Of a stretch of 39,098 nucleotides of DNA, positions 22,758 to 24,242 are shown piece after piece. The notes beneath the pieces were generated by a model, which was given only the letters and a program-made list of their open reading frames with translations, ran no database searches and was not told where the DNA came from. How positions within the stretch are numbered: position 1 is the first letter of the stretch; every line of letters begins with the position of its first letter. The stretch comes from Nitrososphaera sp. (GTDB lineage: Archaea; Thermoproteota; Nitrososphaeria; Nitrososphaerales; Nitrososphaeraceae), in assembly GCA_025924355.1 (NCBI GenBank), contig JAICEE010000003.1, positions 1 through 39,098 of the forward strand, given 5' to 3'. Both the position numbers and the translations under genes were made by a program.

Positions 22758-22945
22758 TTTGTCTGCAAAGCGCGTGTCAGTCTGGATAGTCGCAATGTTA
22801 GGATTTATTAGGATGCTCTTTATTTCCTCCTCGGCAAGTGCCTTGAGGCATTGAGAACCGGAGTAGTCAAATTTGCGGCCAGTTATTATTGCTGGCTTTC
22901 GCCTGCCTCTCCAATCTTGATTGCCCCGCTTCCGAGGACAAGAAC
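22758..22945 (-). pseudogene. carB: Disrupted 5' portion of carB (two frames)
   Basis: Frame A: NETIKKVLVLGSGAIKIGEAGESQQ**. Frame C: [52 protein letters not shown]. Together these are the canonical CarB N-terminus with ~26 extra nt between E and FDYSGSQ. Confidence 0.8.
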
Positions 22946-22958
22946 TTTCTTTATTGTT

Positions 22959-24242
22959 TCATTTCTCGGCGATCTTTCTCCCTCCTATTTTTTTTTTATT
23001 TATTACAAATTTTTTCAAAGGCTTTGGAGTTTTTTTCACAGACTGCAGCTCTGCAGCTTCTGCTGGATCTGCTTTGTCCCTCATACCGTTGGCAATAATT
23101 TCTCTAAATCTGTCAAACACAAACATACAATCGTAGGGGCCCGGCGATGCTTCGGGATGAAACTGGACAGCAATTATTGGTTTGCTCTTGTGCTCAAACC
23201 CTTCAACTGTATTGTCGTCAGCATTTGAGAACCAAACCTTAAAGCCCGTCTTGCCAAGGCTCTTTGGGTCAATCCCGTAGCCATGGTTCTGGCTAGTCAC
23301 ATACACCTGGTTGTCGCGCAAATTCAAGCATGGCTTATTCTGACCTCTGTGGCCGAATCTTAACTTGTAAGTGTTGGCGCCGCCTGCAAGCGCAAGGATT
23401 TGGTTGCCAAGACAGATGCCGAGAGTCGGAGTAGACATATTGATCAACTTTGAAGCAGTCTTTATCGTACTAGTGCAGACCTTGGGGTCGCCCGGTCCAT
23501 TGCTTATCACCACCCCCTTTGGGTTATATGACATCGTCTGCTCATACGTTGCATGCCAGGGTAGCCGGACAACCCTATAGCCCGTGCGCATGATATTGCG
23601 TATAATGCTATATTTCACACCGGTGTCAAGTACTACTACGCAGTCCTTGCCCTTGTCACCATATTCTTGAGCCCCCTTTGTCGAAACCTCTGGCATAAAG
23701 TTCAATCCCTCATACTTGGCACTTGCAAGCATCTTCTTCAAGAGGGATTCATTAATGGCATTTTCAGACACAACAATTGCACCCATCATGACTCCATGCT
23801 CCCTTAACTTTTTCGTCAGCTCTCTTGTGTCGATATTATAGATCCCTGGTACCTTTTCCTCGTAAAGCCATTGATCGAGTGTCTTTATGCAGCTCCAGTG
23901 GCTTGCAACGTCAGATAGATCATGAATAAGCAATCCTTTAATCTGAATCCTATCTGACTCAAAGAACTTGGGCAGACCATACTCGTCCTTTATGTCATAG
24001 CTTGGGACCCCATAGTTACCCACAAGCGGATAGGTAAGGCACAATATCTGACCCCTGTAAGAAGGGTCCGTCAGAGTTTCTGTATAGCCGACCATGCCAG
24101 TGTTGAACACTACTTCGCCAGCAATTCCTGATGGATAACCAAAGCCAATGCCATCAAAAACAGTACCGTCTTCTAGCATCAGCTTGGCAGCATATCCTGT
24201 GTATGTCTGTTTAAGTGTAGGAATTTTTTGAACCCTTACCAA
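22959..24242 (-). CDS. carA: Carbamoyl-phosphate synthase small subunit
   Basis: AKLMLEDGTVFDGIGFGYPSGIAGEVVFNTGMVGYTETLTDPSYRGQIL, GVVISNGPGDP, TLGICLGNQILAL, VQFHPEASPGPYD. Confidence 0.95.
   Translation of the reverse strand: MVRVQKIPTLKQTYTGYAAKLMLEDGTVFDGIGFGYPSGIAGEVVFNTGMVGYTETLTDPSYRGQILCLTYPLVGNYGVPSYDIKDEYGLPKFFESDRIQIKGLLIHDLSDVASHWSCIKTLDQWLYEEKVPGIYNIDTRELTKKLREHGVMMGAIVVSENAINESLLKKMLASAKYEGLNFMPEVSTKGAQEYGDKGKDCVVVLDTGVKYSIIRNIMRTGYRVVRLPWHATYEQTMSYNPKGVVISNGPGDPKVCTSTIKTASKLINMSTPTLGICLGNQILALAGGANTYKLRFGHRGQNKPCLNLRDNQVYVTSQNHGYGIDPKSLGKTGFKVWFSNADDNTVEGFEHKSKPIIAVQFHPEASPGPYDCMFVFDRFREIIANGMRDKADPAEAAELQSVKKTPKPLKKFVINKKKIGGRKIAEK

Follow-up and report, generated by a model that had tools for sequence, protein, structure and literature searches.

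The carB locus and its insert

The window analysed here is a stretch of 39,098 nucleotides from a Nitrososphaera genome, with carA and carB lying on its minus strand. CarB is the enzyme needed for pyrimidines and arginine. The small subunit of CPSase is encoded by carA (22959-24242; TIGR01368, 448.8 bits), whose TGA stop overlaps the 5' end of carB, while the large subunit, carB, is matched by TIGR01369 in two frames, with profile positions 2-24 at 22966-22898 and 24-1051 at 22874-19749. Direct reading places an insert of 26 nt (22897-22872) between the conserved codons E and F: the GAA codon (E) has its last base at 22898 and the TTT codon (F) its first at 22871, and the minus-strand order is GGAGAGGCAGGCGAA on the exon 1 side, then AGCCAGCAATAATAACTGGCCGCAAA, then TTTGACTACTCC on the exon 2 side. 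The upstream part (22898-22972), here called exon 1, encodes PRNETIKKVLVLGSGAIKIGEAGE, and the continuation after the 26 nt is in a different frame; exon 2 (19683-22871; TIGR01369, 1391.9 bits) runs from FDYSG to the stop. An earlier sequence-only reading had reported that about 26 extra nucleotides break the carB N-terminus and form a hairpin with stop codons in a 9-nt loop; its boundaries and sequence were confirmed, and the stem GCCAG/CTGGC lies at 22896-22892/22882-22878 as it had described. No tRNA genes were found within the window.

The tail of carA is in different frames in genome G000 and in its 94% relative G004, close to a long A run (window 22961-23000, minus strand), and the C-termini at loci L007 and L009 read GGRKIAEK and RREKDRQEMKQ before the stop. 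A genuine indel, or else an assembly error within the A run, would account for this difference.

Judged by pN/pS, which is 0.00-0.17 for exon 1 (seven species pairs) and 0.07-0.13 for exon 2, both carB exons are under strong purifying selection, in agreement with the earlier view that the flanks are functional and an old pseudogene unlikely. A second carB, proposed by the same reading as a check, was searched for and none was found above the family cut-off in this genome, a fragmented MAG of 72 contigs and 991,503 bases with 66% completeness.

Structure of the insert and its junctions

The sequence around the insert can be parsed as GGCG-AAA-GCCAG-loop-CTGGC-CGCA-AAT, that is, as a bulge-helix-bulge (BHB) to which both exons contribute. 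The 5' half of the central helix, GGCG (22900-22903), consists of the Gly codon and the first base of the Glu codon, and its 3' half, CGCA here (22874-22877), is the 3' end of the insert. The 5' bulge AA^A (22897-22899) and the 3' bulge AA^T (22871-22873) flank the inner hairpin GCCAG-CAATAATAA-CTGGC (22878-22896), the loop of which contains the stop codons; cuts are predicted at 22898/22897 and 22872/22871. The outermost position of the central helix is a G-A mismatch in this copy, leaving three of the four pairs, and 6 of the 50 distinct arms share this state. Folding of the window strand by RNAfold (-17.7 kcal/mol, z -2.0) gives the inner stem and, from the central helix, its three inner pairs GCG/CGC.

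Across 75 distinct introns the junctions correspond to the canonical archaeal BHB, with a 4-bp helix GGCG/CGYN and 3-nt bulges AR^A and AN^T; the 5' bulge is AAA or AGA in 73 of the 75, and the 3' bulge is AAT, ATT or AGT in all of them. In all 84 loci that were parsed (65 distinct introns), each half of the central helix is followed by a 3-nt bulge, and the inner stem lies between the first bulge and the second half of the helix. Canonical cleavage, two bases into either bulge, yields GEAGEFDYS at every locus, with GAR joined to TTY, so that GGC-GAR TTY-GAC is restored exactly. The inner stem varies in sequence among the 75 while its pairing is maintained (GCCAG/CTGGC, GTCAG/CTGAC, GTTAG/CTAAC, GCTAG/CTAGC, GTCTG/CAGAC, GTCGA/TCGAC), and in one species, G040, the central helix itself is GGTG/CACC. 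Run unguided, RNAalifold recovered the central helix of the parse together with its 5' bulge and inner stem. To quantify covariation we used 50 distinct arms, in which 94.2% of cells are paired, compared with 83.6% after shuffling and 18-60% in slid registers, and 53 cells are changed on both sides, compared with 18 in shuffles; the shuffle control retains relatedness, and the weight is therefore carried by the slid control and the double changes.

The exon side of the central helix is also informative. Here 110 of 111 intron-bearing species use GGC as the glycine codon, the remaining one having the compensated GGT, whereas intronless species have GGT, GGA or GGG in 31 of 33 cases and GGC in only 2. 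On these counts the codon bias is a constraint of the putative intron that is visible in the exon.

The introns are 20-40 nt long, a size that leaves no room for the large catalytic RNA core of a group I or group II intron, and these two classes are ruled out. Their lengths fall in all three mod-3 classes (36, 20 and 19 of the 75), and an in-frame stop is present in all 36 introns of length 3n, compared with 14.7 expected after loop shuffling, although these 36 do not represent 36 independent events because many are related 21-nt forms.

The sequence-only reading had also suggested that ribosomes might hop over the 26 nt, by a translational bypass or frameshift element such as T4 gene 60 or the mitochondrial byps. 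A stop and a hairpin within the skipped stretch are what such an element would contain; however, a length of 20-40 nt in all three mod-3 classes argues against it, and the take-off codon, GAA or GAG, does not match the codon before the landing site in exon 2, which is CAA, AAA, TAA or CAT. Moreover, the conserved pairing of exon 1 with the 3' end of the insert plays no part in hopping, and a canonical motif for the splicing endonuclease EndA is conserved at exactly both of the points where it is required. We consider bypass very improbable.

We propose instead, with high confidence, that the 26 nt form an intron of BHB type in the carB pre-mRNA, for which splicing is predicted. In the nascent RNA the GGCG of exon 1 would pair with the intron's 3' end, CGCA here, to form the central helix, flanked by the two 3-nt bulges and accompanied by the inner hairpin; EndA would cleave both bulges between their second and third bases (AA^A and AA^T) and RtcB would join the exons, so that the mRNA would read GGC GAA TTT GAC (G-E-F-D) and give full-length CarB, while the ribosome on an unspliced RNA would meet a stop codon inside the intron. 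The sequence-only reading was right that the DNA is real and that the hairpin holds stops, and it had the idea of testing for excision, but it did not name an EndA-spliced BHB intron; it saw the 5-bp stem and missed both the full BHB formed with the two exons and the lack of an in-frame ATG, GTG or TTG in exon 1.

Concerning the enzymes, complete relatives possess two EndA genes, one of 187 aa, closest to Aeropyrum 3P1Z and sharing the histidine of its IDHAP motif, and a paralogue of 217 aa without this histidine. This two-gene arrangement fits the broad-specificity (alpha-beta)2 type of EndA that has been described (PMC6379350). Only one of the two genes was found in the present 66%-complete MAG, the catalytic subunit being found in relatives instead; RtcB was found both in relatives and in this genome. 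Of the features that define a BHB pre-mRNA intron, four were thus found for carB, namely exact restoration of the ORF, two 3-nt bulges with a 4-bp helix (three pairs and the G-A mismatch in the window's own copy), compensatory change, and EndA with RtcB. Counted against this interpretation are the G-A outer pair here, the single EndA gene in the MAG and the missing standard start codon, which leaves translation initiation without explanation. From anatomy, covariation, frame, selection, copy number and enzymes together, we infer that carB RNA is cleaved and ligated in the cell.

Distribution of the predicted intron and the carB start codon

A search with the junction DNA in 60 relatives, a comparison that the sequence-only reading had recommended, retrieved the same insert in three close species (98, 94 and 90% overall identity) and longer or shorter versions in others. 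As a pattern, the element matches once per genome in 52 of the 70 genomes of the family, representing 11 of 12 genera, while the reversed control pattern has no match in those 70. A covariance model based on 34 sequences recognises the present copy (22863-22909, E 9.5e-12) and matches 204 of the 400 class genomes, a single one of which lies outside the order, and 48 of 398 in a phylum sample. In the latter the only match outside the order, in G631 (outside the class), is not carB and was judged spurious. The edges of the range are marked by G320, in the same class and outside the order, and, in other families within the order, by G040, G046, G047, G175 and more.

These data bear on the suggestion that the insert is an assembly artefact, a pseudogene or a very recent insertion. 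The window does come from a fragmented, 66%-complete MAG, but the element is present in about 40 genera and in scores of species, including single-contig genomes, nine of which have no carB other than the interrupted one, and both exons are under strong purifying selection; the comparative data already refute this explanation, and we give it practically no credence. Two MAGs each contain two differing intron-bearing carB copies (L202 and L220 in G404; L214 and L221 in G265); they are probably mixed bins.

Precise intronless alleles occur in G013, of the same genus, and in many members of family f9. In G013 (L027), which is nested within an intron-bearing genus and has a GTG start, the intron is exactly absent (GGC GAG TTT); therefore loss occurs and is clean, and G013 is a natural control for the carB intron. 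Mapped on a quickly built carB tree (116 species, root not inferred, several long branches), the intron needs at least 10 changes. As judged by its distribution, the predicted intron is old, widespread and present in most related ammonia-oxidising archaea.

The carB start position is fixed relative to the IGEAG stretch in relatives, 60 nt before GEAG. Here it is occupied by TCG (22972-22970), and exon 1 contains no in-frame ATG, GTG or TTG; a Shine-Dalgarno-like AGGAGGG, conserved in relatives, lies upstream at 22980-22986, and such a stretch is retained upstream of non-standard carB starts. It could be asked whether CarB begins downstream of the insert as an N-terminally shorter protein, with exon 1 and the insert serving as a leader, since exon 2 by itself forms a long ORF with GTG at 22757 as its start and exon 1 is without a standard start codon. 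However, exon 1 encodes a conserved N-terminus in all species, with the low pN/pS reported above, and is joined in frame in intronless relatives, and a start at 22757 would drop the conserved FDYSG together with a further conserved stretch. We attach a very small probability to this alternative.

Among 144 species, ATG, GTG or TTG stands at the start position in 38 of 111 with the intron and in 31 of 33 without it. TCG or GCG is found there in G020 and in each of the 14 members of this genus that carry the intron, and elsewhere CTG (most of f9), ATA, ATT, TTT and more. The contrast goes the same way in all six genera with both states (g1, g44, g49, g56, g32 and g23). When phylogenetically independent pairs were compared, allowing standard starts up to 12 nt on either side, 5-6 pairs (4 in some draws) had the same direction, none the opposite and 2-4 no difference (sign test, p 0.03-0.125, median 0.06); in this test the canonical group included g12 and g16, which may start at a GTG or TTG 6-9 nt upstream. 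Upstream in-frame starts are absent in most copies of this genus. Exceptions exist: two intronless f10 species, G145 (L237) and G109 (L255), have TCG and ACG at the start position (the ACG one codon on), and genus g2 combines an ATG start with the intron. The link between splicing and initiation in carB is therefore only suggestive.

Two other origins for the unusual starts were rejected. Fusion of CarA to CarB by programmed frameshift does not hold as a general mechanism, as the frame of carA relative to carB varies even between near relatives (frame 2 in G000, frame 1 in G004) and is 0 with a stop in G020, and a one-base insertion in the start codon is contradicted by the alignment, which shows substitution instead (TTG to TCG, GTG to GCG). 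A possible but doubtful explanation is that splicing and initiation are coupled, species that keep the intron using weak near-cognate starts (TCG, GCG, CTG, ATA, ATT, TTT, or at the next codon TCG, ACG, ATC) and those that lose it returning to ATG, GTG or TTG. The intron lies about 75 nt past the start, and weak initiation might give the BHB time to form and be cleaved ahead of the first ribosome. If so, there would be real initiation at UCG and GCG and a race between splicing and translation in a prokaryote.

Relation to known systems

If carB is spliced as predicted across most ammonia-oxidising archaea, a core metabolic gene in this abundant group relies on splicing of the tRNA type, and automated annotation will probably label its intron-bearing copies frameshifted or truncated. 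The gene also offers, among cultured species, a set of natural gains, losses and sequence changes with which the origin and loss of BHB mRNA introns, and their separation from coupled translation, can be tested. No mention of an intron or frameshift in carB of these archaea was found in the literature searched, subscription papers and genome annotations being outside its reach.

Pre-tRNA and pre-rRNA BHB introns share with the carB intron the motif, the predicted cuts, EndA and RtcB, but the carB host RNA is a translated mRNA and there is a stop in every in-frame intron. The bypass elements of T4 gene 60 and the mitochondrial byps resemble carB in having an untranslated insert with a hairpin and a stop inside an ORF; carB differs in its variable lengths, in lacking matching take-off and landing codons and in having a BHB instead. 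Among archaeal mRNAs, splicing was stated by Yokobori et al. in 2009 to have been confirmed for cbf5 only (PMC2738675), and a 2020 study of Haloferax, naming cbf5 as the sole earlier archaeal mRNA with a BHB intron, added a case in a 5' UTR (PMC7714728). The latter is an mRNA substrate of EndA, as proposed for carB, but it sits in a leader, whereas the carB intron splits the coding sequence. The cbf5 intron, found in Desulfurococcales and Sulfolobales (PMC2738675), belongs to another gene and another lineage; cbf5 introns are mostly of unconventional BHB type (PMC2738675), while those of carB are mostly canonical, minimal in size and, unlike in cbf5, about 75 nt from the start. Splicing of cbf5 is proven and that of carB is predicted; on this prediction, carB would represent a new host gene and a new lineage for BHB pre-mRNA introns.
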